A stretch of DNA of 64,000 bases from Sphingomonas parva (ex Maeng et al. 2020) (lineage in GTDB: Bacteria > Pseudomonadota > Alphaproteobacteria > Sphingomonadales > Sphingomonadaceae): assembly GCF_004564275.1 (NCBI RefSeq), contig NZ_SPDV01000003.1, forward strand, positions 62,001 through 126,000, in the 5' to 3' direction. Both the position numbers and the translations under genes were made by a program. Below, piece after piece: positions 45,999 to 61,181 of this stretch; position 1 is the first letter of the stretch; every line of letters starts with the position of its first letter. The notes beneath the pieces were generated by a model. It was not told the origin of the DNA. It did no database searches and saw only the letters and a list, made by a program, of their open reading frames with translations.

Positions 45999-46535
45999 AT
46001 GCCTGAAGAGAATGCCGCGCAAGTCTACAACGTGCTGTTCCTGTGCACAGGGAACACCTCACGCTCGATCATCGCCGAGGCGCTTCTGAACAAGCTCGGA
46101 AACGGCCGCTTCCACGCTTATTCGGCCGGCAGCAGCCCCAAGGGCCACGTTCACCCGATGGCGCTCGAGGTTCTCGGCTCGCTGGGGTTCCCGACGGACG
46201 GCGTGCGCTCGAAGAGCTGGGACGAGTTCGCGCCGCGCACCGCCCCGGCGATGGATTTCGTCTTCACCGTCTGTGACAACGCGGCGGGAGAGGTCTGCCC
46301 GATTTGGCCGGGCCACCCGTTCACCGCCAACTGGGGCATAGAGGATCCGGCCGCTGTCGAGGGAGAGGGCCAGCGCGACGCGTTCGTCCAGGCCCTGCAC
46401 CATCTCAGGAGTCGCATCGCGCTTTTCATGGCGCTCCCGATTGAAAGTCTCGATGCCCTGGCGCTTCGAGCGAAGATCCGGGAGATCGGGGAGCTCGAGG
46501 GCGCAACCGACACCACGAAGGAGTGGGCGCAGTGA
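45999..46535 (+). CDS. arsC: Arsenate reductase, low-molecular-weight phosphatase type
   Basis: A 178-aa enzyme of the thioredoxin-coupled ArsC family. The P-loop CTGNTSRS gives catalytic Cys16 and Arg22 (C-x5-R). The second and third redox cysteines are in VCDNAAGEVCP, like Cys82/Cys89 of plasmid pI258 ArsC. A DPAAVEG loop supplies the general acid Asp. It reduces As(V) to As(III) in the cytoplasm for export by Acr3. At 178 aa it is longer than the usual 130-140 aa because of a C-terminal helical extension (LRAKIREIGELEGATDT). Its stop overlaps the next GTG (GTGA). Confidence 0.92.
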   Translation: MPEENAAQVYNVLFLCTGNTSRSIIAEALLNKLGNGRFHAYSAGSSPKGHVHPMALEVLGSLGFPTDGVRSKSWDEFAPRTAPAMDFVFTVCDNAAGEVCPIWPGHPFTANWGIEDPAAVEGEGQRDAFVQALHHLRSRIALFMALPIESLDALALRAKIREIGELEGATDTTKEWAQ

Positions 46536-46963
46536 GTTCCGTCGACGTCGTCATCTATCACAACCCGGAGTGCGGCACGTCCCGCAACACGCTGGCGATG
46601 ATCCGCAATGCCGGCATCGAGCCCCGCGTGGTCGAATATCTGAAGACGCCGCCCACCCGCGCCATGCTCGAGCAGCTGATCGCGCGCGCCCGCATCTCGC
46701 CCCGTGATCTGCTACGGCAGAAGAACACGCCCTTCGCGGAGCTCGGCCTCGGCGACGAGAGCCTGACCGACGGCCAACTCGTCGACGCGATGATGGCGCA
46801 CCCGATCCTGATCAACCGGCCGCTGGTCGTTTCGCCGCTCGGCGTGAAGCTCTGCCGGCCGTCGGAGGCGGTGCTCGACATCCTGCCGGCGGCGCAGCAG
46901 GGCGCGTTCGCCAAGGAAGATGGCGAGCTGGTCGTCGGCGCCGACGGCCAGCGGCTCGCCTGA
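46532..46963 (+). CDS. arsC: Arsenate reductase, glutaredoxin type
   Basis: A 143-aa ArsC of the thioredoxin-fold family unrelated to the preceding one. The active-site Cys is in [13 protein letters not shown], and the substrate-binding arginines are in LINRPLV and LCRPSE. It uses glutathione and glutaredoxin. The GTG at 46532 overlaps the upstream stop (GTGA). Having both types side by side lets the cell reduce arsenate with either thiol pool. Confidence 0.92.
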
Positions 46964-46972
46964 GGAATGCAC

Positions 46973-48046
46973 ATGAGCACAGCAGCCACGGCAGCCGGCC
47001 CGAGCAAGCCGGCGATCACCTTCTTCGAACGCTATCTCACTTTGTGGGTGGCGCTCTGCATCGCAGTCGGCATCGGCCTCGGCCACGCCTTCCCGGATCT
47101 GTTCGCCCTGATCGCCTCGGCCGAGGTGGCCCGCGTCAATCTACCGGTGGCAGTCCTCATCTGGCTGATGATCATCCCGATGCTGCTGAAGATCGATTTC
47201 GGTGCGCTCGGCTCGGTTCGCCAGCATTGGAAAGGCGTCGGCGTCACCCTCTTCATCAACTGGGCGGTGAAGCCCTTCTCGATGGCGGCGCTCGGCACCC
47301 TGTTCGTCGGCTGGCTATTCGCGCCTTCGCTCCCTCAGGCCGAGATTCCCTCCTACATCGCCGGCCTGATCATCCTCGCCGCGGCCCCATGCACCGCGAT
47401 GGTGTTCGTCTGGTCGAATCTCTGCGACGGGGAGCCCAATTACACGTTGAGCCAGGTCGCGCTGAACGACATCATCATGGTGTTCGCGTTCGCGCCGATC
47501 GTCGGCCTGCTGCTCGGCGTGGCGGCGATCACCGTCCCCTGGGACACTTTGCTCCTGTCGGTCGTGCTCTACATCGTCATCCCGGTGGTCATCGCCCAGC
47601 TTCTGCGGCGCATGGTGATTGGCAGTGGTGGCCAGCCCGCCCTCGACCGCCTGCTGGCGGCGCTCAGCCCGGTGTCCCTCGTCTCGCTGCTCACCACGCT
47701 GGTCCTCCTGTTCGGTTTCCAGGGCGAACAGATCCTGGAGCAGCCGCTGGTGATCGCACTGCTGGCGGTGCCGATCCTCATCCAGGTCTACTTCAATGCC
47801 GCGCTTGCCTATTGGCTCAGCCGCCGTTTCGGGGTCGCCTGGTGCGTGGCTGCTCCAGCCGCCCTCATCGGCGCATCAAACTTCTTCGAACTCGCCGTGG
47901 CCGCCGCGATCTCACTGTTCGGCATCAACTCGGGCGCGGCGCTCGCCACCGTGGTTGGCGTGCTCGTCGAGGTGCCGGTGATGCTCTCGGTAGTCAGCAT
48001 CGTGAAGAGGAGCCGGGGCTGGTACGAGCGGGGCGCGCCGGCATGA
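46973..48046 (+). CDS. acr3: Acr3-family arsenite efflux permease
   Basis: A 357-aa inner-membrane carrier with ten hydrophobic segments. The conserved Cys motif [14 protein letters not shown] in segment 4 is typical of Acr3 and needed for As(III) transport; the late motif [14 protein letters not shown] is also typical. The ATG at 46973 has GAGGA seven bases upstream, whereas the ATG at 46967 directly follows that site and is less likely. Exports As(III), driven by the proton-motive force. Its stop overlaps the arsH start (ATGA). Confidence 0.93.
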
Positions 48047-48786
48047 GGCTCCGTACGCTGACCGAACCGGACCATCTGCCAGCGCTCGACCCCGCCTACG
48101 TCATTCGCCGCCCGGCCCTCGGACTTGGCGACGTCGAGAGTCCGCCGCGCTTTCTTCTCCTCTACGGCTCTCTCCGTGAGCGGTCCTACTCACGTCTCTG
48201 CGTCGAGGAGGCCGCCAGGTTGCTGCAGCTCTTCGGCGCTGAAACGCGGATCTTCGATCCTTCCGACTTGCCGCTACCGGACCAGGTCAACGGCGATGAT
48301 CACCCGGCCGTCCACGAGCTGCGCGAGCTCTCGACCTGGTCCGAGGGCCACGTCTGGTGCAGCCCCGAGCGGCACGGGCAGATCACCGGCATCATGAAGG
48401 CCCAGATTGACCATCTGCCGCTGAGCTACGGTGGCGTTCGGCCGACGCAGGGGCGCACGCTGGCGGTGATGCAGGTCTCGGCCGGATCCCAGTCGTTCAA
48501 CAGCGTCAACACCCTGCGCACCCTTGGGCGATGGATGCGCATGTTCACCATTCCGAATCAGTCCAGCGTGGCCAAAGCGTTCAACGAGTTCGACGCGGAG
48601 GGTCGTATGAAGCCGTCGAGCTACTACGACCGAATCGTTGACGTGATGGAGGAACTCGTCCGCTTCACCGTCTTGATACGTCCCCACGCTCAGCAGCTCG
48701 TTGATCGCTACTCTGAGCGAAAGGAGGCGGGGCCGCCGGCGGATCCCGGAAGGGATCTCTCAAGAATCGTTATCTCAGAGTCCTAG
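48043..48786 (+). CDS. arsH: ArsH NADPH-dependent FMN oxidoreductase
   Basis: A 247-aa flavodoxin-like protein: phosphate-binding loop [13 protein letters not shown], the [19 protein letters not shown] stretch, and the family block [20 protein letters not shown]. ArsH oxidises trivalent methylated arsenicals to less toxic pentavalent forms. It is the last gene of the operon, coupled to acr3 by a 4-bp overlap. With ArsI truncated, ArsH would be the only remaining activity in this operon that deals with organoarsenicals. Confidence 0.92.
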
Positions 48787-48855
48787 AACACGACGTCGAT
48801 CTGGTGCTCCCGAGGACAAGGTCGGCTCGTCGACCAAGACCGTCGCCTCGCGCGC

Positions 48856-49848
48856 TCAAGGCAGAGCTTCGAATGTCCTCTGATGCCCGTGCACCATTTC
48901 CCGCAACCGCGCCGGCTGCAGCACCTCGACGGACCTGCCCCAAGCGTAGAGGTGCCAGCACATCTCGAGGTGGCCCGACGCCTTGAAGCGCACCAGAAGC
49001 GAACCGTCCGCCTCCTCCTCGATGGTCTGCGTCGGATGGAATACGAAGCGGCGTGCGTGCGGAGCTGCTTCAGGGGAGAAGCGCCAGACGACGTCACCCT
49101 GCTCCCTAGAGTTCTCGAAGGAGCCGAAACCCTTCTCCGCATGGCGACGGATGTCAAAGTCCGCATCGAGTTCGAAGCTCTGCGGGAGGACTTCCGCTTC
49201 GGCGATCTCCTCGACCCGGTAGTGTTGGAGAGGCGCCGAAGCTGGCTTGGCGGCGTCCCGTGCAATCAGGTACCGCCGGACGCCGAGGAGCAGTCCATGG
49301 GGAGCGACAATCCGGTCGGTCGGCCTCGGACGCGTCCGCGTCCTGTATGGAAAGCGCAGCAGGAACGGTCCCTTTAGCGCCTCGTAGATGGCCATGTCGA
49401 CCGCGCTGTTCACCGCAGGCCTGGGGCCCGGGCGCGCGGCGTGCCCGAGGGCCTCCAGCAGCGCCTCCTCGTCGACGGCCAGCCTCGTTCCGGCCTCCGG
49501 CGGTACCAGCGCACGGACCTTCTGCTTCAACTGCCGTATCGTGGAGGCCTCGGAGATCAGCCCTGCGGCCTCCAGTTCGTTGATCGCGGTCGTCAGCGCT
49601 GCGAGTTCCTCGGCCGACGGTGTGAGCAGGGGAGCCACTGCCCGTGCCGGGATGCGCCATCGCCGCTTCCGATCGTCGCCATCCTCGGCTTGGGTCTGAG
49701 GGAACGCCGATTCCAGGGCGTCGGTCATCCGCTGCGCGGAGCGGTGCACGCAGCCGAACTCCTCGATGATCTCCTCGAGCGACACCCCGCTGCGCCGGGT
49801 GGCCATCATTGCGAGCTTCAGGAGCTCCTGCGCCTTCGCGAACGACAT
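48856..49848 (-). CDS. WYL-domain transcriptional regulator
   Basis: A 330-aa regulator with an N-terminal winged helix (KAQELLKLAMMATRRSGVSL, VHRSAQRMTDALESAFP), a WYL domain from about residue 170 (AIYEALKGPFLLRFPY, VAPHGLLLGVRRYLIARD) and a C-terminal WCX-like end (HLYAWGRSVEVLQPARLREM). In the WYL motif the Trp is replaced by Arg (RYL). The ATG at 49848 has GGAGGTCCG before it. It is divergent from the nuclease-helicase gene with 61 bp between, the usual layout for WYL regulators such as CapW/BrxR that control defence genes by sensing a nucleic-acid ligand. Confidence 0.85.
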   Translation of the reverse strand: MSFAKAQELLKLAMMATRRSGVSLEEIIEEFGCVHRSAQRMTDALESAFPQTQAEDGDDRKRRWRIPARAVAPLLTPSAEELAALTTAINELEAAGLISEASTIRQLKQKVRALVPPEAGTRLAVDEEALLEALGHAARPGPRPAVNSAVDMAIYEALKGPFLLRFPYRTRTRPRPTDRIVAPHGLLLGVRRYLIARDAAKPASAPLQHYRVEEIAEAEVLPQSFELDADFDIRRHAEKGFGSFENSREQGDVVWRFSPEAAPHARRFVFHPTQTIEEEADGSLLVRFKASGHLEMCWHLYAWGRSVEVLQPARLREMVHGHQRTFEALP

Positions 49849-49909
49849 CGGACCTCCATGACAGCTTTTGTCGTCCTGATCTGCTATAGCGAACGAAAGG
49901 GGATTGTGC

Positions 49910-52900
49910 ATGCGCTTGATTGGCGACGCGTGGCGGCTGAGTGCGTCGGATCTGATGCGGTTCAAGGGGTGTCGGCATGCGACGACCTTGGACCTGAGGC
50001 TGATCGAAGTCGGGGACGTTCAGCCCCGCGCGGACGCTGCGGAGACCGAGCTGCTTCAGCGACAGGGTGACGAGCATGAGCTCGCGTTCCTCGAGGGGCT
50101 GAAGGCGGAAGGCCGCACGGTCGTCGAGATCGCGAAGGAGGGCATCGCGCTTGAGGAGTCGGTGCGCCTGACGCGGGAAGCCATGGCATTGGGACCTGAC
50201 GTGATCTTCCAGGGCGCGCTGCTCGATGGCGCCTGGGGCGGCTACTCGGATTTCCTCGAGCGGGTGGAGCGCCCCTCCAACCTCGGGGGGTGGTCGTACG
50301 AGGTCGTCGACACGAAGCTGAAGCGCAAGCCGGACCCCAAGCACGTCCTCCAGCTCTGTCTCTACAGCGACCTGCTCGCCAAGGTTCAGGGCGTCGCGCC
50401 GGAAGCGGCCCATCTGCAACTGGGTGACGGCAGCCGCTTCACCGTGCGGCTGTCCGAGGTGTCCTCCTACGCGCGGCACGCGCGGCGCATGCTGGAGGCC
50501 TTCCTGATCGAACGTCCCGGCACGCGGCCGGAGCCGGTGTCCGGCTGCGGGCTGTGCCGCTGGTCGGCCAGCTGCGCGGAGCAATGGGAGCGAGAGGACA
50601 GCCTTGCGCTGGTGGCTGGCATCAGTAGGTCCCAGCGGCAGAAGCTCGAGGCGGCCGGCGTCACGACGATGGCTGGACTGGCCGCCCGGAGCGAGCGCGT
50701 TCCCAGGATGGCTTCGGAGACGCAGCGGCGACTGGTGGCGCAGGCGCGCTTGCAATCGGCCCGCCGTGCGGGCGCTCCCCCGTCGTTCGAGCTGCGCGAC
50801 GAGGAGGCCGGCAAGGGCTTCGGCCTGCTTCCTGCGCCCGACGAGGGCGATATCTTCTACGACATCGAAGGCGATCCCTACTTCCCCGGTGGCCTCGAAT
50901 ACCTCCACGGCCTGTGGTATCGTGACGCCGGCGAATGGACCTTCCGGGCTTTCTGGGCCCACACCCGCGAGGATGAAGGTCGCGCCACCTCGGAACTGCT
51001 CGACTTCCTCGTCGATCGCATGCGACGCTATCCGGCCGCGCGCATCTACCACTATGCCAACTACGAGATCGCCGCGCTGCGCCGCCTGACCGCGCAGCAT
51101 CGAACAGGCGAGGCCGCGATGGACCAGCTCCAGCGCGAGCGCCGCTTCGTGGATCTTTTCAAGGTCGTCTCCGGTGGATTGATCGCGTCGGAGAAGGGGT
51201 ACTCGATCAAGGACCTCGAAGCCTTCTACATGGAGAAGCGTGCCGCCGACGTGGCGACCGCGGGAGCGAGCGTCGTGTTCTACGAGGACTGGCGTCATAC
51301 GGGAGAGCAGCGCCTCCTCGACGAGATCCAGGACTACAACCGCACGGACTGCATCTCGACGCAGCTGCTTCGCGACTGGCTCGTTCAGGAGGTCCGCCCC
51401 GTGGAAATGCCGTGGCCCGTTATTGGTGAGGTACCGGAAGGCGGATCACTCTCGAACGTCGAAGCCGAGGACGAAGAGATCGCCAGGCTGCGCGCCAGGC
51501 TCGAGCCGGTGCGCGAGCGGCTGGGCGACGGCGTGGCTGACCTGCTCCTCGATCTCAGCGAGTTCCACAGGCGAGAGGACAAGCCCGCCTACTGGGCCAT
51601 CTTCGACCGCCTCGCCCAGGACAGCGAGGAGCTGCTTGATGACCTGGAGTGCATCCAGGGGCTCGAGGCCGTGGCTCCTCCCGTGCAGGTAACCAGGCAG
51701 TCCTTCGAACGCACCTACCGCTTCCCGCCGCAGGAGACGAAGCTCCGCGCAGGCAAGACCCCTTGCGTGAAGCCGGCGGCGATGCCGGAGGACGTCAATC
51801 TCCGCTCCATCGATCAGGACTCGAGCACGCTCGTGCTGCGCCGCTCGACGGCGAAGGGCCCCCTGCCGGACCGGCTCGATCTTCTTCCGCCAAGGCCCCT
51901 TCGAAACGACATTCTGCGAAACGCGGTGGTCGCTGTTACCGACGAGATCATCGCCGACACCGGTCGGATGGCCGCGGTCGAGCACCTGCTTACGAGATCT
52001 CCGCCTGTCTTCACTGACGGGGTGCGGCCCGACGGCATCATTCCCGTGGATGGCGATCTACCAGCCGACACGAGCCGCGCCATCTCGGCCATGACCGGGA
52101 CGACGCTGGCGATCCAGGGGCCACCGGGGACGGGCAAGACCTACGTCAGCGCGCTTTCGATCGTCGATCTGGTGCGCGCCGGAAAACGCATCGGGGTCTC
52201 GTCCAACAGTCACAAGGCGATTGGGAACCTGCTGGAGGCGGTCGCAGAGCGCGCTCGCTTCGAACGCGTGAACTGCCGCGTAGTCCAGAAGGCGTCCGAC
52301 GACGGTGATGACGAGCCGCATCCGGGTATCGTCTTCGTCAGCGACAACGAAGCCCCGGAGATCGCCGCCGCTCACGTCGTCGGTGCCACGGCCTGGCACT
52401 TTGCAAGATACGATGCCCCCGCCTTCGACTATCTGGTTGTGGACGAGGCCGGACAGGTGTCGATCGCCAACATTCTCGCGATGTCGCGCTGTGCGCTCAA
52501 CATCGTGCTGGTTGGCGATCCGATGCAGCTTCCTCAGCCTCTGCAGGGCAGTCATCCCGGCGAGAGCGGGCGATCATGCCTGGAGTACCTTATCGACGGC
52601 CACCGCGTCGTTCCCGCCGATCGCGGCATCTTCATTCCCGTAAGCCGTCGCATGCATCCGCGCGTCTGCGGCTACATCTCGACGGCCGTCTACGAAGGGC
52701 GCCTCGGAAGCGACGAGGCTTCGGGACGTCAGACGCTCGTCTCACGCGGTGGCGCTGATCTTGCCGGAGCGGGGTTGCGGTCGATCGTCCACTTCGGACG
52801 ATCGCAGGTGAGCCCGGAGGAGATCGAGGCCATCTCGTTTCGCATCTCCGAGATCGTGGGCGCCAGGTACTGCTGCCGGGAGGGGCGGGAACGCGAGGTC

Positions 52901-53245
52901 GCCCACTCTGACATCCTGGTCGTCGCCCCCTACAACGCCCAGGTGAATGCGCTTCGGGCCGCGCTCCCAAGGGATGTGCGCGTCGGGACCGTCGATCGCT
53001 TCCAGGGCCAGGAGGCGCCGGTCTGCCTGGTCTCCATGACGACCTCGAGCGGCGAGGAGCTCCCGCGCGACATCGCATTCCTCTTCTCGCTGAACCGGAT
53101 CAACGTGGCCGTCTCCCGCGCCCAGGTTGCGGCCATTGTCTTTGCTAGCCCCCTTCTGCTCGAGACGCCGTGCCGTACGGTCGAGGAGATGTCACTGGTC
53201 AACGCGCTGTGCATGCTGCACGAATACGGGGGTGACAGCTTCTGA
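49910..53245 (+). CDS. TM0106-type RecB-like nuclease, RNase H-like domain and SF1 helicase fusion
   Basis: A 1111-aa protein with three enzyme modules. (1) A RecB-like nuclease: early Cys in DLMRFKGCRHATTL, catalytic EVVDTKLKRKP and HVLQLCLYSDLL near residue 130-150, and three further Cys in SGCGLCRWSASC (about 213-222), an arrangement that suggests a 4Fe-4S cluster. (2) A DEDD-type RNase H-fold: YDIEGDPYFPG near residue 318, YHYANYEIAAL and DYNRTDCISTQ. (3) An SF1 Upf1/Dna2-like helicase: Walker A GPPGTGKT near 736, DEAGQ, VGDPMQLPQP, TVDRFQGQEAP and NVAVSRAQ. It probably degrades or remodels nucleic acid. First gene of the nuclease/peptidase block; ATG 49910 has AAAGGGG upstream. Confidence 0.9.
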   Translation: MRLIGDAWRLSASDLMRFKGCRHATTLDLRLIEVGDVQPRADAAETELLQRQGDEHELAFLEGLKAEGRTVVEIAKEGIALEESVRLTREAMALGPDVIFQGALLDGAWGGYSDFLERVERPSNLGGWSYEVVDTKLKRKPDPKHVLQLCLYSDLLAKVQGVAPEAAHLQLGDGSRFTVRLSEVSSYARHARRMLEAFLIERPGTRPEPVSGCGLCRWSASCAEQWEREDSLALVAGISRSQRQKLEAAGVTTMAGLAARSERVPRMASETQRRLVAQARLQSARRAGAPPSFELRDEEAGKGFGLLPAPDEGDIFYDIEGDPYFPGGLEYLHGLWYRDAGEWTFRAFWAHTREDEGRATSELLDFLVDRMRRYPAARIYHYANYEIAALRRLTAQHRTGEAAMDQLQRERRFVDLFKVVSGGLIASEKGYSIKDLEAFYMEKRAADVATAGASVVFYEDWRHTGEQRLLDEIQDYNRTDCISTQLLRDWLVQEVRPVEMPWPVIGEVPEGGSLSNVEAEDEEIARLRARLEPVRERLGDGVADLLLDLSEFHRREDKPAYWAIFDRLAQDSEELLDDLECIQGLEAVAPPVQVTRQSFERTYRFPPQETKLRAGKTPCVKPAAMPEDVNLRSIDQDSSTLVLRRSTAKGPLPDRLDLLPPRPLRNDILRNAVVAVTDEIIADTGRMAAVEHLLTRSPPVFTDGVRPDGIIPVDGDLPADTSRAISAMTGTTLAIQGPPGTGKTYVSALSIVDLVRAGKRIGVSSNSHKAIGNLLEAVAERARFERVNCRVVQKASDDGDDEPHPGIVFVSDNEAPEIAAAHVVGATAWHFARYDAPAFDYLVVDEAGQVSIANILAMSRCALNIVLVGDPMQLPQPLQGSHPGESGRSCLEYLIDGHRVVPADRGIFIPVSRRMHPRVCGYISTAVYEGRLGSDEASGRQTLVSRGGADLAGAGLRSIVHFGRSQVSPEEIEAISFRISEIVGARYCCREGREREVAHSDILVVAPYNAQVNALRAALPRDVRVGTVDRFQGQEAPVCLVSMTTSSGEELPRDIAFLFSLNRINVAVSRAQVAAIVFASPLLLETPCRTVEEMSLVNALCMLHEYGGDSF

Positions 53246-53295
53246 CGCCCCCGCGTGCGAATCCTGCTGGACCGAACCAATGGAGATTCGCTGAG

Positions 53296-53556
53296 ATGGC
53301 TTACTGGGATATCGGCCTGCGCCACATCGTTGACGTCGACGGACAACTGCTGGCCATCGATGCCGAGGTTATCGACACCACGTCGCTACTCACCAAGGCC
53401 GATCGCCCAGCCCACCTGCATCTGTGGCAGGTGCGCGCCGGCGAGCGGTTCAGGCTTCAGCCAAGGCAGCTCGTGCGCCTCTCTTGCGACGAGGTGCTCT
53501 TCTTCGAGACTTCCGCCGCGATCGCTCCGTCGATGTTGCAGGGGCTAGCGGCCTGA
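53296..53556 (+). CDS. Small hypothetical protein (86 aa)
   Basis: An 86-aa soluble protein, 50 bp after the helicase gene. It is probably all-beta (WDIGLRHIVDVDGQLLAIDA, HLHLWQVRAGERFRLQPRQ, VRLSCDEVLFFETS). One Cys and an HLHLW cluster could form a small metal site. No family recognised. Its composition looks like a real protein, and its place in the operon suggests a partner or regulator of the nuclease-helicase. Confidence 0.6.
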   Translation: MAYWDIGLRHIVDVDGQLLAIDAEVIDTTSLLTKADRPAHLHLWQVRAGERFRLQPRQLVRLSCDEVLFFETSAAIAPSMLQGLAA

Positions 53557-53699
53557 GCGGCCCAGGAGCGGCATGAGTGGGGGCCCTCTTCGGCCAGACA
53601 GCTTCTGTCACCCTCGTGCCGCATCCTCGATCCTGCGGTCCTCCTGGGACCGGTATTCGATCCGAAGCCGCCCGGCGGCAGAGCGAAGGAGAAGTGGGC

Positions 53700-53905
53700 A
53701 TGGCAAAGCCTGGCAGCTTCAGGAGTGCAAGCACCGGGCGGTACGTGAGCCCGAACCATGGACGCTCGCACCCCGCACGACGGTACAGGAGGCGCCAGGA
53801 AGGAGTGGCAGTTCGGGTGCCCACTACCGAAGCGCCATCAGCGGGCGGTATGTAACTACGAAGCACGGCAAGGCCAGCCCGCATACCACCGTACGCGAGG
53901 ACTGA
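53700..53905 (+). pseudogene. Small GRYV-repeat protein, frameshifted
   Basis: The start has a good ribosome-binding site (GAAGGAGAAGTGGGC before ATG 53700). The frame begins MAKPGSFRSASTGRYVSPNH and then GRSHPA; at about 53777 the continuation lies in another frame: TTVQEAPGRSGSSGAH, YRSAISGRYVTTKHGK, ASPHTTVRED and stop at 53905. The two halves are a tandem repeat of the pattern (F/Y)RSAxxGRYVxxxHG(R/K)xxPxTTVxE, which shows that they belong together. One missing base explains the break. Single-repeat proteins of this kind are common small proteins of unknown function. Confidence 0.6.
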
Positions 53906-53946
53906 CCTTACGGGGCCGTCGCTCCGTTTCCGGAGAGGAGTTGCAA

Positions 53947-55596
53947 ATGGAAATCGCAGTCTACGCAGCGCTGGCGCTGGCGCTCGTCGCGGTGGTAATC
54001 GGGGTGCTGATCCTTCGGAAGATGGGGCGTCCGGCCGCAGTCCCCGCCGATCTGTCCCTGCGCATCGGCGTGATCGAGCAGATCGCCAGTTCGCTGCCCG
54101 GCACGTTCCGGGAGGAGGCGCGTACCGGCCGCGAGGAGCTGCGGGCGATGTTCGCGTCGCAGATCGAGGCGCTCGAGGGGCGCTTCTCCGCCGTTGAATC
54201 GCGGCTGGGCGAGTTCGGAAAGGTTCAGAACGAGCAGCTTTCCTCGATGCGCTCCGAGGCAGCCGACGGGCGCGCGAAGCTCGAGGAGTCCATGCGGCGC
54301 AACGCGGACGGGTTCGCGGCATCGCAGAGCGAGCGCTTGAAGGAGACCAACGACGCGGTCCGCAGCCTGTCCGAGCGGCTACTCGAGGCTCAGCGTGAGG
54401 CGCGGCAGGAGCAGCGCACGACGCTTGAGGCGGTTTCGAGTTCGCAGTCGGAGCGGCTCAAGGAGACCAACGAGGCGGTTGGCAGTCTCTCCGAGCGGCT
54501 GCTCGCTGGGCAGAGGGAGGCGCGCGACGAGCAGCGTGCAGCTCTGGATGGCGTCACGGCGAAGATCGCCCAGCTCACGGAGAGCAACGAGACGCGGCAG
54601 GAGGCGCTGCGCCAGACCGTGGCCGGCGGCCTGGAGACCCTTCGCACCGACAATGCCGACAAGCTCGAGAAGATGCGCGCGACGGTCGAGGAGAAGCTGC
54701 AGGGCACCCTCGAGAAGCGGCTCGGCGAATCATTCCAGCTGGTGAGCGACCGGCTGGAGCAGGTGCACAAGGGGCTTGGCGAGATGCAGAACCTCGCCAC
54801 CGGCGTGGGAGACCTCAAGCGGGTGCTCGGCAACGTTAAATCACGCGGCGGCTGGGGCGAAGTCCAGCTCGGCATGCTGCTCGACGACATGCTCACTCGT
54901 GACCAGTTCGCCACCAACGTCAGGATCCGTCCAGAATCCGGAGAGGTCGTCGAATATGCGGTGCGCCTCCCCGGGCGCTCCGGCGACGACATCCCCCTGT
55001 GGCTCCCCATAGACGCGAAGTTTCCGCACGAGGACTACGAGCGTCTGCTCGTCGCCCAGGACGCCGGCGTCGCCGAGGAGGTCGAGAAGGCCGCGGTGGC
55101 CCTCGAGCGCGCCATCCGCCTCCAGGCGAAGACGATTTGCGAGAAGTATGTGCATCCTCCGCTCTCGACGGACTTCGCGATCATGTACCTCCCCACCGAA
55201 GGGCTCTTCGCGGAGGTGATCCGTCGCCCCGGCCTTGCCAGCGAGCTGCAGACCAAGCACCGCGTCATGGTGCAGGGGCCCACGACGCTGGCAGCCCTGC
55301 TGACCAGCCTCCAGATGGGCTTCCGCACCCTGGCGATCGAGAAGCGCTCGAGCGAGGTGTGGCAGGTGCTCGGCGCAGCGAAGGCGGAGTTCCTGAAGTA
55401 CGGTCAGGTGTGGGAGAGACTCGGCAAGCAGCTCGACACCGCCAAGCGCACCGTCGACGAAGCCGGCCGCCGCACCCGAGCCGTAACGCGGCAGCTGCGG
55501 GAGGTTGAGACGCTGGATGCATCCGAGGGACCCGCCCTTCTGGGCCTCGTGGCTGGCGAGATCGAAGAGGAGGCGGATGCGGAGGCCGCGGAGTGA
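53947..55596 (+). CDS. rmuC: RmuC-family protein
   Basis: A 549-aa protein with an N-terminal membrane helix (YAALALALVAVVIGVLIL), a very long coiled coil with two near-identical segments (SQSERLKETNDAVRSLSERL and SQSERLKETNEAVGSLSERL), and the RmuC core: GGWGEVQLGMLLDDML, IDAKFPHEDYERL, FAIMYLPTEGLFAEVI and VMVQGPTTLAALLTSLQMGF. RmuC has a restriction-endonuclease-like fold and limits certain DNA rearrangements. The ATG at 53947 follows GGAG; the frame is open far upstream but unrelated. It lies in the nuclease/peptidase block. Confidence 0.93.
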   Translation: MEIAVYAALALALVAVVIGVLILRKMGRPAAVPADLSLRIGVIEQIASSLPGTFREEARTGREELRAMFASQIEALEGRFSAVESRLGEFGKVQNEQLSSMRSEAADGRAKLEESMRRNADGFAASQSERLKETNDAVRSLSERLLEAQREARQEQRTTLEAVSSSQSERLKETNEAVGSLSERLLAGQREARDEQRAALDGVTAKIAQLTESNETRQEALRQTVAGGLETLRTDNADKLEKMRATVEEKLQGTLEKRLGESFQLVSDRLEQVHKGLGEMQNLATGVGDLKRVLGNVKSRGGWGEVQLGMLLDDMLTRDQFATNVRIRPESGEVVEYAVRLPGRSGDDIPLWLPIDAKFPHEDYERLLVAQDAGVAEEVEKAAVALERAIRLQAKTICEKYVHPPLSTDFAIMYLPTEGLFAEVIRRPGLASELQTKHRVMVQGPTTLAALLTSLQMGFRTLAIEKRSSEVWQVLGAAKAEFLKYGQVWERLGKQLDTAKRTVDEAGRRTRAVTRQLREVETLDASEGPALLGLVAGEIEEEADAEAAE

Positions 55597-55691
55597 TCGA
55601 TCGGACGGGATCTCGTCTCAGGCGAAGGGCGCGCGGGGGCGAACCTCTTCGTCGCGGAACGCGAGCTTGGTGACTCGAACATGTCCCAGCG

Positions 55692-56594
55692 ATGGGATTG
55701 CTGCCAAAACCGCTGTTTAAGGCCGGGACGCGCGCGCCGAACTCTGCGAAGTCACTCGTTGCACCGTCCAAGAGGAGATCCGCGATTCTTACCATTGATG
55801 AGATCAGGCGTGCGATCGAAGAGCGCGCGCCGGGGACATGGCAGCCTGCTGAGACGGCTGCCTATCGGCGCGGCGCCCAGGCAGGATCGATCGACGCCAA
55901 TCTGTTCGGTCTCCGCCTCGACGACGCGATCCGTCTCAAGGCGGCTGATCTTGACGTGATGGGGGAACTCGCGGCGACGCCGCCGCCCAGCGTCGACTGG
56001 CGCGACGATGCGAGCGGCTGCGTGTCTCCGGCGAAGGATCAGGGTCAATGTGGCGCATGCGTCGCGTTCGCCACCTGCGCGGCGATGGAGAGCGTCCACT
56101 GCATTGCGACCGGCAGGAAGGTCGTTCTTTCGGAGGCACACCTGTTCCACTGCAATGGCGGCTCGTGCGCTACCGGCTGGGGGTTGACCAGCGGCCTGTC
56201 GGCTGCCCGCAACGGCGTGGGTCTGGAGGCGGACTTTGCCTGGACGTCGACCGAGGAATGCATCGACATCGCTCCTGCCGTGCTCATCCGCTCGTACCGG
56301 CAGAGAGCGTCCATGAAAGACCGCAAGTGGGCTGTGTCCCACGGACCCGTGCTCGCAGGCATGAAGGTGTTCGAGGATTTCCTCGCGTATTCGGGCGGCG
56401 TCTACCGACACGTTCTCGGAGATCACGTCGGCAACCATGCCGTTTGCGTCGTCGGCTACGATGAGGAGGGCTGGATCGTAAAGAACAGCTGGGGACCGGA
56501 TTTCGGGGAGATGGGCTTCTTCAGGATCGCCTATGGCGAGTGTGGACTGGACGATGAATTCCTGTTCTTCTCCATCGAGACGGGATCACCGTAG
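55692..56594 (+). CDS. Papain-like (C1A) cysteine peptidase
   Basis: A 300-aa protein with all papain catalytic elements: Gln118 and Cys123 in DQGQCGACVAFA, His249 in GNHAVCVVGYD and Asn265 in WIVKNSWGPDFGEMGFF. The disulfide-region motif is SEAHLFHCNGGSC. The Trp after the catalytic Cys in papain is Val here. About 95 residues precede the mature domain and could be a propeptide (TIDEIRRAIEERAPGTW). No clear signal peptide, so it may act in the cytoplasm. It is followed 9 bp later by a chagasin-like gene, which would be its inhibitor. Confidence 0.88.
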   Translation: MGLLPKPLFKAGTRAPNSAKSLVAPSKRRSAILTIDEIRRAIEERAPGTWQPAETAAYRRGAQAGSIDANLFGLRLDDAIRLKAADLDVMGELAATPPPSVDWRDDASGCVSPAKDQGQCGACVAFATCAAMESVHCIATGRKVVLSEAHLFHCNGGSCATGWGLTSGLSAARNGVGLEADFAWTSTEECIDIAPAVLIRSYRQRASMKDRKWAVSHGPVLAGMKVFEDFLAYSGGVYRHVLGDHVGNHAVCVVGYDEEGWIVKNSWGPDFGEMGFFRIAYGECGLDDEFLFFSIETGSP

Positions 56595-56603
56595 GAGGCG
56601 GTC

Positions 56604-56897
56604 TTGAAGACGACGACCCCGGATGGAGCGCTTGAGGTGACGGTCGGAGAGGTCTTCGGCGTCACCCGGCCGGGCCGCGAGACCTCGGGCTTTGCCGTCA
56701 GCATCGAGGTGCCCGCCGGCGTGCGGCGGATCGGTGTGATGCGCGACCCCTCCACGAACTTCGGAGGCGCACCTCAGGTGACCGAGCAGTTCAGGTGCGA
56801 ATGCCCCGGAACGTATCAGATCATCTTCGAGGAAGGTCGCCGCTGGGAGCCTCGCAAGGCGCGCTCCGCCACGGTCATACGTTGCATGGATCGCTGA
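56604..56897 (+). CDS. Chagasin-like (I42) cysteine peptidase inhibitor candidate
   Basis: A 97-aa protein starting at TTG 56604 behind an excellent ribosome-binding site (GTAGGAGGCGGTC). The composition is all-beta (LEVTVGEVFGVTRPGRETSG, FAVSIEVPAGVRRIGVMR). The end GTYQIIFEEGRRWEP resembles the RPW-containing strand of chagasin-type inhibitors, which block papain-like peptidases. The usual NPTTGY loop is not evident, so the assignment relies on the end motif and on the neighbouring C1A gene. Its TGA directly abuts the stop of the convergent subtilase gene. Confidence 0.55.
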   Translation: MKTTTPDGALEVTVGEVFGVTRPGRETSGFAVSIEVPAGVRRIGVMRDPSTNFGGAPQVTEQFRCECPGTYQIIFEEGRRWEPRKARSATVIRCMDR

Positions 56898-59294
56898 TCA
56901 GACCTCGATGCCCGCCTCGATCTCTGCGGCGATCTGAGTGTAGATCTCCTCCTCCGGAGTACGGATCGTCACGACCAGGGAGTACCTGGCCTGCTGGTCT
57001 ATGCGTTCGACGTCGTCGCCCCACCAGCCCTTGCGCGGAAAGACGATGATCCCACCCATCCGGGCCAGATCGGCCGCGGTGGTCCGGAGGCGATCGTGTT
57101 TGAGCCCACCCCGTCCGCGATAACGCGGCCCGAACATCCAGGGCAGTGCCGCAGCGCTCGAGGGCCGACGCGCCGGACGCAGGTCGTTGAGGCGCGCGAT
57201 CGCCTGCTCCTCCGACTCGTCGGGCCGCTTCACGTCGAAGTCGAAGCCGTGTGAGGCGTACTCCTCGGCATCGCCCCGCACGACGGCTGCGGGATTCGGC
57301 TCGATGAAGTAGGAGAGCGTGATCCGCAGTTCCGCTTCCGTTTGACCGAGATCCTCGAGCACCTCCTCGGGCCACGGGAGACGGTGAGCCCTCATCTGGC
57401 CGAGCACTGCCGCTTTGCCGTCGTCGTTCAGGCGCAGCGGCCGGAGCCATCCCTGCATGATCATCGTGAGCGCGTCCTCTGCGTTCTCGAGGACCGCAGC
57501 CCGGTCCGGCCGTCCGAAGCCGAAGCGCTCGAGCAGAGCCTGCTGCTGGCTCCCGCGGCGCGCGGCCGCGGCATTGGCTCGGGCGATCATCGCGGGCGTA
57601 TGATCGCTCCCGTGCACCACCAGCGCACGAACCGTCTCCGGCCAGAGACGGGGGTATTCCGCCTGGATGCGCGCGCACAGGCCGGCCATGGCGGCGGTGG
57701 CGCCGCTCGTCTGTCCGGTAAGCGTCACCGGGGCGTTGAGATCGGGCGCGGTAGTCAGGAGGCACAGGTCGGGGTGATGGCCGACATCGGAGCTGGCCCG
57801 ATCAACCATCTGATTGCCGCCTTCGAAGACGACGTCCGGCTTCACCGGCGGACGGTGCCTCCGTTCCCAGTTCACGGCGGTACGTGACCACGGCGACAAG
57901 TCGCCCTCGGGCGCCAGCGGACGATGCGTCGCCGGGACGCCGACGAGGTCCGTGCACGCCCCCACTGAGAGCACGTTCCAGGCCTGGGACGGGGTCAGCA
58001 TCCCGGTCACTTCGTTGAGAGACTGATAGTCCGAGTGCGCGAGCGCGCCGTCGAGATTTCCGGCCGCGACGCAGAAGAGGCGCTGGCCGCTCACATCCGA
58101 GGCGAGGGTATCGATCTCGCACGAGAGGCTTGAAGGGCCGCCGTCATCCGTCTCCTCCGGTGCATTCATCGCCAGGCAGTAGGTCCGGAGCCGATCGCCA
58201 TTCTCCTCCTCGACCAGGTTGACGCCTTGGCGGAGGCGCTCCGCCGGCAGCGTCGCGACGCCGACTGCTCCCGGAGCCGGATCGATCGTCACCGATTCGA
58301 TGCCGATCGGCAGAGTGATGCGCCCTCTTCTGACCTGGAGGGCCCCGGCCAGATCGTCGAACAGCGCCAGTCCGGCCATCTTCGTGCCGTGGCCATGCCA
58401 ATCGTCGGCGTCGCCGCCGGGCACGCTGTCCGCGAAGCGGATGGAGTCTGCGAGCAGCGGATGGTTCTGCATGACGCCGGTATCGAGGATGCAGACCGCC
58501 GGGGCATCGTCATCGGCAGCATCGATGCGGCGCGCGGCTGCCATCACGGCCGCCGCCTGGATTCCGGAGGGTACGGCCATCAGGTCTGAATTCAGGGACG
58601 AGGCCGGACGCAGCTGTGCGATCGCCGCGCTCTTGGCCACGCGCTCCAGTTCACGCCTGGGCGCCTCCAGCGCCAGCACCCTCATCCGTTCGAACGCGAC
58701 GGAGCGACGCGCCCGCAGTCCCAGCGTCTCGAGGACTTCCCTCAGCCGCGGTTCAGCGGCTGGCGGGAGCCAGACCTCCCAAGCCGCCTCGTCGTCCATG
58801 TCGGGGATCGGCAGCTTGGAGGCCCAGAGATCCGAGACGGTGGTGAACTCGACCGTAGGCTGAGCCTCGAAGAAGTCGAAATGGTGGGGGCGCCGCCTGC
58901 CCTTGCCGGGTGCGAAGTCGCGGTATCTCTGCGCCGCGGCCTCGAACTGCTCCAGGCTGCTCGGATCCAGAGCGACGTTCACGCGAGCCGTGCGATCGAA
59001 CCCGACGACCGACAGGACCTCGTTCCTCCTGGGGCCGGGGACGGAGGCGCTGATGCCCCACTCCGTGCCGGCTCGTGCGGTCATCGGGATCCGATCCGGA
59101 TCGATGAGAGGATCGTCGCCTCTGCGTGCCGCGGTGACGAGCCCGCTCACGCTGCGGACGACGCGACTTGCGTTCGCCGTACGGTTGGCGACGACGGGAG
59201 GATGGCTCGGCGTCCCGCCTCCTCCGCCGCGAAGGGAGAAGTCATAGCGCGGACCGACGGATTCGACGATGAGGTGTGGGCGTTCGACAGGCAT
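56898..59294 (-). CDS. Subtilisin-like (S8) serine peptidase paired with an AAA+ ATPase
   Basis: A 798-aa protein with the catalytic triad of subtilases: Asp271 in CILDTGVMQNHPL, His302 in WHGHGTKMAG and Ser530 in GQTSGATAAMAGL. Asn413 in AAGN forms the oxyanion hole. About 260 residues precede the catalytic domain, and 230 residues follow it with a beta-rich look (ELRITLSYFIEPNP, LVVTIRTPEEEI). There is no signal peptide, so it is presumably cytoplasmic. It lies 41 bp downstream of the AAA+ gene on the same strand. Subtilase-AAA pairs of this kind recur in bacterial genomes; a conflict or quality-control role is inferred. Confidence 0.9.
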   Translation of the reverse strand: MPVERPHLIVESVGPRYDFSLRGGGGGTPSHPPVVANRTANASRVVRSVSGLVTAARRGDDPLIDPDRIPMTARAGTEWGISASVPGPRRNEVLSVVGFDRTARVNVALDPSSLEQFEAAAQRYRDFAPGKGRRRPHHFDFFEAQPTVEFTTVSDLWASKLPIPDMDDEAAWEVWLPPAAEPRLREVLETLGLRARRSVAFERMRVLALEAPRRELERVAKSAAIAQLRPASSLNSDLMAVPSGIQAAAVMAAARRIDAADDDAPAVCILDTGVMQNHPLLADSIRFADSVPGGDADDWHGHGTKMAGLALFDDLAGALQVRRGRITLPIGIESVTIDPAPGAVGVATLPAERLRQGVNLVEEENGDRLRTYCLAMNAPEETDDGGPSSLSCEIDTLASDVSGQRLFCVAAGNLDGALAHSDYQSLNEVTGMLTPSQAWNVLSVGACTDLVGVPATHRPLAPEGDLSPWSRTAVNWERRHRPPVKPDVVFEGGNQMVDRASSDVGHHPDLCLLTTAPDLNAPVTLTGQTSGATAAMAGLCARIQAEYPRLWPETVRALVVHGSDHTPAMIARANAAAARRGSQQQALLERFGFGRPDRAAVLENAEDALTMIMQGWLRPLRLNDDGKAAVLGQMRAHRLPWPEEVLEDLGQTEAELRITLSYFIEPNPAAVVRGDAEEYASHGFDFDVKRPDESEEQAIARLNDLRPARRPSSAAALPWMFGPRYRGRGGLKHDRLRTTAADLARMGGIIVFPRKGWWGDDVERIDQQARYSLVVTIRTPEEEIYTQIAAEIEAGIEV

Positions 59295-59335
59295 GCTAAG
59301 GGCGTAGCGTAGGCGTTGCGATTTCGCTCGCTAAA

Positions 59336-60331
59336 TCACTCTCGAGTCCGATGCGATTCTGATCGCCGTGCCTGAACGGCGGAGAGCAGGATGCTGGTGG
59401 TCACGATGGCGTCGTTGCCGAGCACGGCCGTTCTGGCGGCATCTTCCGCGGCCCGGATCATCTCGGCCTGGCTCATGCCCGCAGCGGCTTCCTCCACGGC
59501 ATCCCAGGATACCGAGGCGAGCTCGAACGGGACGAGGGCCTTCAGGAACACTTCGCGGATGCGGTCGCGGGGCAGCAGGTCGTACTCGATGTAGCTGTCG
59601 AACCGGCGGAACACGGCGGGATCGAGCAGCTCGGCGTGGTTCGTTGCGGCTATGATCAGGGAGTCACCGTCGTCCTCGTCCAGCATCTGCAGGATCGAAT
59701 TCAACGTGCGGCGAGCCTCGCCGACATCGTTCCCGATCATCCTCCTGCTCGCCAGCGCATCCACCTCATCGAAGAAGTACACGCCGCGAGTGCTTCGCAT
59801 CGCATCGAAGACGAGGCGGATCTTCGACGACGTCTCACCCATGAACTTCGTGATGATGCCGTCGAGGAGGATCGTGAAGAGCGGGAGCGATAGTTCTCCG
59901 GCAAGGGCTGACGCGGTGAGCGTCTTCCCGGTTCCCGGAGGTCCGACCAGGAGGAACTTTCGCCGCGGCTTGAGACCGTGGGCGGCCAGCTTCTGGCGAT
60001 GCCTGTGCTCCTCTACGATCCCGCGCAGCTTCCCCAGGGTGTCCTCCTTCAGGACCATGTTCTGGAGGCGAGTGTGGGGATAGCTCGCTGCGACGAGACC
60101 TGCGAGCTCCCCCTTCGGACGCACGACTGGAATGGGACCGCCACGAACCTGCGCAGCCTGGTCAGCGCGCTCGCGCGCGTCCTGGATCAGCAGTCGGATC
60201 TCGTCCGCGAGTTTGCGCTGCCCGCGCTGCGCGGCTTCGGACGCAAGCTGCAGGGCAACGCTCTGAAAGCGGGCATCGTCGCGCTCGCTGAACGAGCGCA
60301 CGAGCGCCAGAACCTGCGCCTGCGTTGTCAA
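59336..60331 (-). CDS. AAA+ ATPase partner of the subtilase
   Basis: A 331-aa ATPase of the classical AAA clade: Walker A GPPGTGKT at residues 130-137, pore-like loop KFMGET, Walker B VYFFDEVDAL at about 184-193, sensor-1 Asn231 (AATNH) and arginine fingers FRRFD at 241-245. A helical N-terminal region of about 90 residues (VRSFSERDDARFQSVALQLA) probably contacts the partner. It is the first gene of the minus-strand pair. It could unfold or deliver substrates to the subtilase, or control its activation. Confidence 0.9.
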   Translation of the reverse strand: MTTQAQVLALVRSFSERDDARFQSVALQLASEAAQRGQRKLADEIRLLIQDARERADQAAQVRGGPIPVVRPKGELAGLVAASYPHTRLQNMVLKEDTLGKLRGIVEEHRHRQKLAAHGLKPRRKFLLVGPPGTGKTLTASALAGELSLPLFTILLDGIITKFMGETSSKIRLVFDAMRSTRGVYFFDEVDALASRRMIGNDVGEARRTLNSILQMLDEDDGDSLIIAATNHAELLDPAVFRRFDSYIEYDLLPRDRIREVFLKALVPFELASVSWDAVEEAAAGMSQAEMIRAAEDAARTAVLGNDAIVTTSILLSAVQARRSESHRTRE

Positions 60332-60436
60332 ACTTCCGACTCCTTCATGTGCGCAGCCTTAGAGCGGATAACGTCGCACCGGAAGCGGCTGCGAGCCCTA
60401 GCAAGCTGCCACCGAACCGGTTACCAAGTCGGAATG

Positions 60437-60473
60437 TCTCATATATGAGATTTTTGCAACAAATTTGGTACAA
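60437..60473. promoter_or_regulatory. Double palindrome upstream of the DUF6471-like gene
   Basis: TCTCATATATGAGA (60437-60450) is a perfect 14-bp palindrome. Three bases on, TTGCAACAAATTTGGTACAA (60454-60473) is an interrupted palindrome of the form TTG-N3-CAAATTTG-N3-CAA. Both lie in a conspicuously AT-rich patch of an otherwise GC-rich region, 8 bp before the ATG at 60482 and about 105 bp upstream of the AAA+ gene. They are strong candidates for an operator pair serving the divergent genes. Confidence 0.7.
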
Positions 60474-60481
60474 CGTGGCTG

Positions 60482-60739
60482 ATGTCGGAGATGCGCAAAT
60501 GGGAGAAGCAGGCTGCTCGCATGCTCCGCATCGAGATGGCGCGGCGTGGTGTTCGCGTCTGCGACCTGGCGAGGTCACTCTCCCAGGAGGGTGAGGACGT
60601 GACCGCGGCGAGCCTGCGCAACAAGCTCAGCAGAGGCACGTTCGGCGCAGGCTTCCTCCTGCGATCCCTCCTGGCACTTGGATGCGACGGAGCCGAAGTG
60701 GGCCGTCTCTTCGACATGATCAGGTCACCCGGCGAGTGA
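60482..60739 (+). CDS. DUF6471-like small helical protein
   Basis: An 85-aa protein: MRKWEKQAARMLRIEMARRG, VRVCDLARSLS, SLRNKLSRGTFGAGFLLRSL, LALGCDGAEVGRLF. The block LRNKLSRGxFxAxFLL after LARRGV is what I remember as the DUF6471 pattern, which looks like a lambda-repressor-type helix-turn-helix. It stands alone, divergent from the AAA-subtilase pair and directly behind two palindromes, so it may be the local repressor. The start could be 60482 or 60491. Confidence 0.7.
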   Translation: MSEMRKWEKQAARMLRIEMARRGVRVCDLARSLSQEGEDVTAASLRNKLSRGTFGAGFLLRSLLALGCDGAEVGRLFDMIRSPGE

Positions 60740-60797
60740 TCGCCACGGGCGTGCCGCAGCTGTCTCCTGAGGCGGGCTCAGGAGGAGGGGCTTGGCG

Positions 60798-61181
60798 TTA
60801 TGATCCGTGGGCGGCCGGGCAAGCCAGCAGCTTGGCCATGGCCGCCCTGCCTGAATCGGTGAGGGAAAGGTAGCTGCGCCGCCGGTCGCTGGCGTCTGGC
60901 TTACGCTCCACCAGCCCGACGTCAACCAGCAGGTTCACGTATCGCATTGCGGTCGAGTACGATGCCAGTGAGCCGATGCATGCCGCCGAGACACTCAGCT
61001 CCCTTCCCTGGCCTGCTGATATGAAGAGGTCGAGAAGCATGTTCCAGGCTGGGTCCACACACAGTTCGGCGCCCAGGATTTCCATGCGGCGCGCGTTGAG
61101 GGCGTATATCCAACGGGCCTGAGCGAGAGCCTCATCGCTCGCGGGCAGTGGATGGACGGCGCGGTGCGGGGCGGCCGACAT
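60798..61181 (-). CDS. MarR-like winged-helix regulator
   Basis: A 127-aa regulator: RWIYALNARRMEILGAEL, SVSAACIGSLASYSTAMRYV (recognition helix) and a wing LVERKPDASDRRRSYLSLTD. The DRRRxxLxLT motif is typical of MarR-type wings. The ATG at 61181 has CGGAGAGCA in front of it; an upstream ATG at 61247 is possible but has no visible site. It lies near the island end with small membrane-protein genes on the same strand. Ligand and targets unknown. Confidence 0.75.
   Translation of the reverse strand: MSAAPHRAVHPLPASDEALAQARWIYALNARRMEILGAELCVDPAWNMLLDLFISAGQGRELSVSAACIGSLASYSTAMRYVNLLVDVGLVERKPDASDRRRSYLSLTDSGRAAMAKLLACPAAHGS

Follow-up and report, generated by a model that had tools for sequence, protein, structure and literature searches.

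A DriD-like WYL regulator and three predicted operators mark a putative single-stranded DNA-triggered regulon in a genomic island of Sphingomonas parva

Which genes of a genomic island belong to one system, and what would switch that system on? The question is raised by a 64,000-nucleotide stretch of Sphingomonas parva DNA (contig NZ_SPDV01000003.1, positions 62,001 to 126,000; hereafter the window), where a WYL regulator, a nuclease-helicase, an 86-aa protein that we call U86, a small repeat protein, RmuC, a C1A papain-like peptidase (C1) and a chagasin-like (I42) protein lie in a row near an integrase. An earlier reading made from the letters alone (the sequence-only reading) had joined all of these in a single new defence system. 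We consider it probable instead that the segment 48856-55596 is a small regulon triggered by single-stranded DNA (ssDNA) under a DriD-like WYL activator, with a repair or anti-phage role, and we judge C1 and I42 to be a separate neighbouring unit. Predicted operators mark WYL, helicase, U86, the repeat gene and RmuC as members and leave C1, I42 and an IetAS-like pair outside; the border is placed between RmuC and C1 because operators mark only one side of it, something that gene order alone cannot tell. Gene calls were heuristic throughout, and a literature search, mostly limited to non-subscription papers, found no account of this gene combination.

The regulator (331 aa from its ATG, 48856-49851, minus strand) is divergent from the helicase, as first read, and matches the Pfam families WCX (PF25583, 55.6 bits) and WYL (PF13280, 24.3 bits), both above cut-off. 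In the PDB it is matched best by 9pfq (E 2.7e-52) and 8tp8 (E 3.8e-52), which yield the same aligned sequence over residues 3-321 of 331, and the similarity to 8tp8 spans the winged helix-turn-helix, the three-helix bundle, WYL and WCX. At E<=0.01 this search returned five distinct sequences, all DriD-type chains by their deposited names, with no BrxR or CapW entry. In the literature, 9PFQ is described as DriD of Caulobacter, which binds ssDNA through its WYL domain, recognizes the site ATACGAC(X)7GTCGTAT overlapping the -35 element, and activates a two-gene operon divergent from driD without activating its own gene (PMC12340889); the division inhibitor DidA is also DriD-induced (PMC4211646). 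By analogy, we infer that the window regulator is a DriD-like activator that would respond to ssDNA. DriD-like WYL genes at E<=1e-25 occur in 21 of 215 genomes of the class, its own included.

The divergent promoter measures 58 bp, not the 61 bp first given, from the WYL start codon at 49851 to the helicase ATG at 49910, and it contains GACAGCTTTTGTC, with the same GAC-N7-GTC spacing as the published DriD site and TGCTAT 9 bp further on. Operator 1, TGACAGCTTTTGTCGTCC, occupies 49859-49876 on the plus strand with no mismatch (core 49860-49872), and the -10-like TGCTAT (49882-49887, plus strand) is oriented to the helicase, at a distance from the core that is shared with relatives. Throughout the 4.49 Mb genome only three sites have at most one mismatch, all on the plus strand of this locus: at 49859, before the nuclease-helicase; at 53233, before the U86 gene (operator 2, 53233-53250, overlapping the helicase stop, one mismatch, position weight matrix score 25.3); and at 53596, before the repeat gene and RmuC (operator 3, 53596-53613, one mismatch). 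Two further genome sites have two mismatches, and a reversed control pattern gave two; within the window, five matches with up to three mismatches compare with 1.08 expected, a count that none of 100 shuffles reached. Ahead of C1, the I42-like gene and IetAS, pattern scans and the matrix scan alike found no operator. Control of the locus by the WYL protein, already suspected, is strengthened and made specific by the likeness to DriD and the predicted sites, and the three operators are, with the IetAS-like pair, features absent from the sequence-only reading.

The same arrangement is found in relatives, whose loci we number with an L. Upstream regions of 22 WYL genes were taken, and that of L105, where the WYL gene matches in two pieces and its start was not found, was dropped; among the remaining 21, the strict GAC-N7-GTC form is present in 12 and a relaxed form in all 21 (2000 shuffles of these regions: mean 0.3 and largest 4 for the strict form, mean 1.3 and largest 7 for the relaxed one), and a -10-like hexamer stands at the identical 9-bp spacing in 10. 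When each locus was excluded from the matrix used to score it, 17 of the 18 loci in which a WYL gene is divergent from the helicase had an operator (score >=15) before the helicase, versus 2 of the 24 loci without such a gene; in the exception among the former, L073, the WYL protein is a distant one (34%), and the latter two are L026, whose nearby WYL gene has the other orientation, and L069. A second operator lies within 60 bp of the helicase end in 9 of the 18 loci and in none of the 24, and the gene that comes next is U86 or, in L016, a multi-ubiquitin gene, in L015 TRIP13 and in L014 a 65-aa gene, with L062 having its operator slightly farther downstream, ahead of its multi-ubiquitin gene. 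Operators also stand before SbcD-like genes (L018, L059, L104) and before the gene ahead of RmuC, in the window and at the equivalent place in L107, and at score 18 no site was found in 30 of 59 loci of at least 9 kb. As for U86, 14 of the 15 family members have an operator (score >=13) at 50-65 bp before the gene, one shuffle of the 257 kb of U86 loci gave no match at all, and the real loci have few matches elsewhere, some without an assigned gene (L017, L060, L109, L110).

Two more settings of the operator came up on the side. In L029 (1417-5905), where no DriD-like WYL gene was found, the top-scoring operator (30.3) precedes a 495-aa protein (DUF2779, with a weak Cas4 match) and a 959-aa gene. 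In L026 and L071, operators at position 13787 precede an 89-aa gene similar in appearance to the DUF4258 gene of L018, and a WYL gene lies nearby.

The likeness to the DriD regulon of Caulobacter crescentus comprises the near-full-length similarity of the regulator, the GAC-N7-GTC site, a divergent operon as target and the fixed distance from site to -10. The differences are in the targets, here a nuclease-helicase, U86 and RmuC, in the presence of three sites inside one locus, and in the placement of relatives on islands and plasmids; the gene divergent from driD in Caulobacter, which DriD activates, is CCNA_03891, of unknown function, and here it is the nuclease-helicase.

The regulator could also act the other way round, as a WYL dimer of BrxR/CapW type that silences helicase, U86 and RmuC from these operators until infection. 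WYL regulators beside exchangeable defence operons, CapW and BrxR among them, are documented (PMC9122601, PMC9122588, PMC9122589), and genes of the cyclic-oligonucleotide-based antiphage signalling system (CBASS), McrBC, IetAS and TIR genes lie beside relatives of this locus. However, the closest solved relative, DriD, is an activator, the operator spacing and the fixed-distance -10 match DriD-activated promoters, and the chromosomal WYL-U86 pairs of L108, L109 and L111 stand amid genes read as ordinary, so that we hold a repressed anti-phage operon to be unlikely.

The first predicted target is a 1111-aa protein (49910-53245, plus strand) of the TM0106 type, in which the RecB-like nuclease, RNase H and superfamily 1 helicase parts of the initial description are all borne out: it matches TIGR03491 with 288.4 bits (cut-off 97.45) and the Pfam families RNase_H_2 and AAA_11/AAA_12, and it carries the motifs GPPGTGKT, DEAGQ, GYSDF, EVVDTK, QLCLYSD and YDIEGDP. 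The TM0106 family, to which this match assigns the protein, has to our knowledge no established function; the loci L065-L082 are for the most part without a DriD-like operator. Among plasmid records, 143 gave a match to the helicase (E<=1e-5), and 60 of these matches extend over 80% or more of the query. Relatives also occur in 11 of 118 genomes (E<=1e-20) and, within the order, in 31 of 396 (E<=1e-100), its own genome included in both counts. Besides the window, 40 helicase loci were taken with their flanks (median 9.6 kb after the helicase; L079 and L080, less than 1 kb). The WYL gene is divergent from the helicase in 18 of 42 helicase loci, the window included.

The genes after the helicase vary among loci. 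L016 and L062 have a set of multi-ubiquitin, E1 and DUF6527 genes immediately after it, with the operator before the multi-ubiquitin gene, and genes of these types are nearby in L067 and L078 and, by annotation, in L014; L019 and L064 have SbcD-SbcC-like genes, L028 has IetA-IetS, L024 has genes for an AAA and a McrBC-family protein, an arrangement that several other loci appear to resemble, and in L060 a TIR protein comes after U86. On a Shinella plasmid (L015, 6950-13265), TRIP13 and a CBASS cyclase come after the order WYL-operator-helicase-operator; here the same switch precedes another immune cargo.

The third operator precedes a two-repeat small protein (53700-53905, plus strand) and RmuC (549 aa, 53947-55596, plus strand; PF02646, 245 bits). 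The repeat protein of the first reading stands as a gene with one-frame relatives in L107 and L061, but in the window it is split over two frames. RmuC is found in only one of the 40 other helicase loci (L016, 49% identity), and it follows U86 in L107 (68%), a locus reached through U86 in which the genes, from WYL through helicase, U86 and the repeat protein to RmuC, are arranged as in the window, with operators; among the U86 loci, L107 is the only one besides the window with the WYL-helicase-U86-RmuC combination. An RmuC domain is also part of the anti-phage system Shield (ShdA), which differs in being described in Pseudomonas and in that ShdA alone is sufficient (PMC10270631).

The second operator precedes U86 (53296-53556, plus strand), a genuine 86-aa reading frame without a Pfam or NCBIfam match. 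A profile run over the loci collected 16 open reading frames, 15 distinct members (L017 and L106 are identical in sequence and counted once), the least alike pair sharing 23% identity. The tails of these proteins were observed directly: after linkers of 10-32 residues, 14 of the 15 end in AA and one in LVA, with the window U86 ending in LAA, and among 686 called genes of the same loci 42 end in AA and 13 in [LIMV]AA. The tag of the host transfer-messenger RNA is ANDNEALAIAA, and AA-type ends of ssrA tags are established ClpX signals, so we infer that U86 would be short-lived through an ssrA-like ClpXP degron. A WYL gene is near U86 in 13 of the 15 loci, with the helicase between them in 7 (the window included) and without it in 6, one of which, L108, has another gene between the two. 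On a Sphingobium plasmid (L116, 7001-9660), a U86 relative ending in ALAA has an operator 64 bp upstream and is directly followed by a CBASS cyclase and an effector with four transmembrane segments.

Strong U86 matches are found in 11 of 397 genomes of the bacterial family, its own included; seven weak genomes (E 8e-4 to 6e-3) were dropped, three of which (L113-L115) gave no match to the hidden Markov model. Of 215 genomes of the class, only its own has U86, three weak matches being discarded, no convincing U86-like gene was seen next to DriD-like WYL genes elsewhere in the class, and the viral contigs scanned with U86 had none.

Is U86 related to ubiquitin? The L111 relative matches Multi_ubiq (PF14452) with 26.2 bits against a cut-off of 24.5, and no other family is matched by so many members (3 of 14 scanned: L111, and L112 and L116 weakly, below cut-off), L109 having been scanned separately. 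The first four Foldseek rows obtained with the U86 model are bacterial multi-ubiquitin chains of 9cd2 and 8u38 (best E 7.8e-3, none below 0.001), and in VIA-align nearly every one of the 50 rows is a ubiquitin or a ubiquitin-like chain, with Z up to 7.9, where Z under 8 may reflect a common arrangement. U86 also occupies the slot after the helicase that multi-ubiquitin genes take in L016 and L062. A ubiquitin-like fold is, on balance, likely, the model being of low confidence. Compared with bacterial multi-ubiquitin (BubA)/E1-type operons, the L111 match, the Foldseek rows and the shared slot with its operator are alike, but U86 is a single domain ending in LAA; the partners E1 (ThiF), E2 and DUF6527 were not among the nine proteins scanned at 48856-60331. 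Elsewhere in the same genome, L124 (G000:C7:3074-3700) encodes a three-repeat multi-ubiquitin protein, with E1-like (33% to that of L016) and DUF6527-like (43%) genes beside it, and because of this E1-like gene it is conceivable that a remote E1 may act on U86. A more daring view, which we regard as rather improbable, is that U86 is a ubiquitin-fold adaptor whose conjugation tail was swapped for the host destruction signal, and that it would deliver chosen proteins to ClpXP without an E1 or E2 of its own; its candidate cargo would be phage or stalled replication machinery at ssDNA-marked sites, or the WYL activator itself.

U86 might instead hold the nuclease-helicase in check, as an antitoxin or inhibitor made labile by its degron tail, given that it is small, labile-looking and adjoins the helicase in 7 of its 15 loci; however, it accompanies WYL without the helicase in six loci, and L014-L016 have WYL and helicase without U86. 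We rejected the antitoxin role on finding U86 without the helicase, and consider this explanation very unlikely.

It could also be argued that the genes came together by chance in an island next to a tRNA-Ser integrase, with joint function limited to WYL and helicase. The integrase of the sequence-only reading was confirmed as a 434-aa frame running from 63596 to 900 bp past the window end, its portion beyond the window matching Phage_int_M and Arm-DNA-bind_3; tRNA-Ser lies 1.1 kb beyond the window end, at the end of the island, and the genes downstream of the helicase are variable. Against chance, sites with up to one mismatch exist nowhere else in the genome and the WYL-helicase-U86-repeat-RmuC order is repeated with operators in L107, which leaves this possibility with very little room. 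An AlpA gene is found at 62733-63428, an Rfam scan of 48000-61000 gave no matches, and just upstream of the locus, at 45999-48786, there is an apparent arsenic resistance set (arsenate reductases, an ACR3-like transporter and an ArsH-like gene) labelled from the reading frames.

Beyond RmuC follow the genes judged to be neighbours. The C1A peptidase (55692-56594, plus strand) matches PF00112 with 143.7 bits and has its active-site motifs QGQCGAC, GNHAV and KNSWG intact, the previously proposed catalytic Cys123 being the second Cys of QGQCGAC. The chagasin-like inhibitor (56604-56897, plus strand) was upheld in part: it matches PF09394 with 23.0 bits and its kind recurs near C1, but the score is below the cut-off of 27.2, and no convincing match was obtained in a PDB sequence search or in Foldseek with its model (predicted local distance difference test, pLDDT, 64). 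The IetAS-like pair on the minus strand (56898-60331; S8 peptidase 56898-59294 and AAA ATPase 59336-60331) gave PADLOC matches (IetS 4.7e-25, IetA 4.2e-70), but both proteins are under the NCBIfam equivalog cut-offs.

C1 relatives occur in 3 of 385 class genomes at E<=1e-10, its own included, and in five plasmid records. I42 is near C1 in three of five C1 relatives, adjoining it on a Streptomyces plasmid (L022), about 1.2 kb away in an alphaproteobacterium (L083), and present in Deinococcus (L021); no I42 was found with the C1 relatives of L013 and the 3-kb contig L084. A contig scan of genomes with C1 gave a single locus, which has no I42. On the Deinococcus plasmid (L021, 6848-14696), C1, a small gene and I42 are followed by caspase-family proteins, and together they could form a protease cascade that has nothing to do with the helicase. 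Neither C1 nor I42 was found at the 40 other helicase loci (two of them covered for less than 1 kb after the helicase) or L107, by tblastn and a reading-frame scan with small profiles. The I42 tblastn is weak in that the same query missed the annotated I42 of L021 and L022, but a three-sequence profile run over the same loci again found only the window's own I42. Because C1 relatives have I42 nearby in loci without the helicase, the pair appears to travel independently, as a separate unit. The recurrence of the families grouped by the sequence-only reading is thus divided: WYL with helicase, also with U86 and, in L107, with RmuC, recurs, but C1/I42 was not found with them, and its single system becomes two neighbouring units. 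C1-I42 as effector of the helicase system was rejected on its absence from these loci, its occurrence without the helicase and the lack of an operator. A seven-gene system in which nucleic-acid sensing by the nuclease-helicase frees C1 from I42 is, despite co-directional genes, a RmuC-C1 gap of only 95 bp that would allow read-through from operator 3, and intact C1 motifs, highly improbable on these same grounds and on the sub-threshold I42 match.

In the ssDNA-triggered regulon that we favour, ssDNA from damage or phage replication would bind the DriD-like activator, and the loaded activator would occupy the three GAC-N7-GTC operators in place of a -35 element, turning on the nuclease-helicase, U86, and the repeat gene with RmuC. 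The nuclease-helicase and RmuC would process damaged or invading DNA, and U86 would be a damage-induced partner or checkpoint protein, quickly cleared by ClpXP. The response would be a pulse ending once ssDNA disappears, because ClpXP would remove U86 quickly. Phage defence, as originally suggested, is plausible from the CBASS, McrBC, IetAS and TIR genes that neighbour relatives, but DNA repair fits equally well, with SbcD/SbcC-like and RmuC neighbours and the chromosomal WYL-U86 pairs.

Several points weigh against this explanation. Similarity to DriD does not in itself demonstrate ssDNA binding by the regulator, and other defence-locus WYL regulators, BrxR and CapW, are repressors. Many of the loci tested had themselves supplied WYL upstream regions for training the operator matrix, leave-one-out scoring keeps close relatives, and the training set already contained the U86 operators of L104 and L110; the U86 sites of L108 (14.1), L060 (15.3) and L107 (16.9) are weak, and L112 has none. 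The 15 U86 members are related, so that their counts are not independent, L116 is without an adjacent WYL gene, and the WYL-helicase loci L014-L016 are without U86. As to its nature, the window U86 has no Multi_ubiq match in a Pfam scan at E<=10, the matches of the two further members are weak (E 0.097 and 0.12), hhalign of the U86 family with 21 multi-ubiquitin domains gave a probability of 0.4%, and the model was built from a single sequence with pLDDT 54.9; one tail is LVA, and an AA tail could serve something besides ClpXP.

The locus offers a testable regulon defined by its sequence, with a DriD-like sensor, an operator and marked genes, and the operator, unlike adjacency, separates members from neighbours in a defence island. 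U86 may be ubiquitin-like and carry a degradation tag within its own sequence, and, were it an adaptor to ClpXP, it would amount to a single-protein equivalent of ubiquitin-proteasome targeting, induced by an ssDNA-sensing activator. More generally, because multi-ubiquitin operons and CBASS genes fill the U86 slot in close relatives, one ssDNA switch appears to drive an exchangeable repair or immune cargo.

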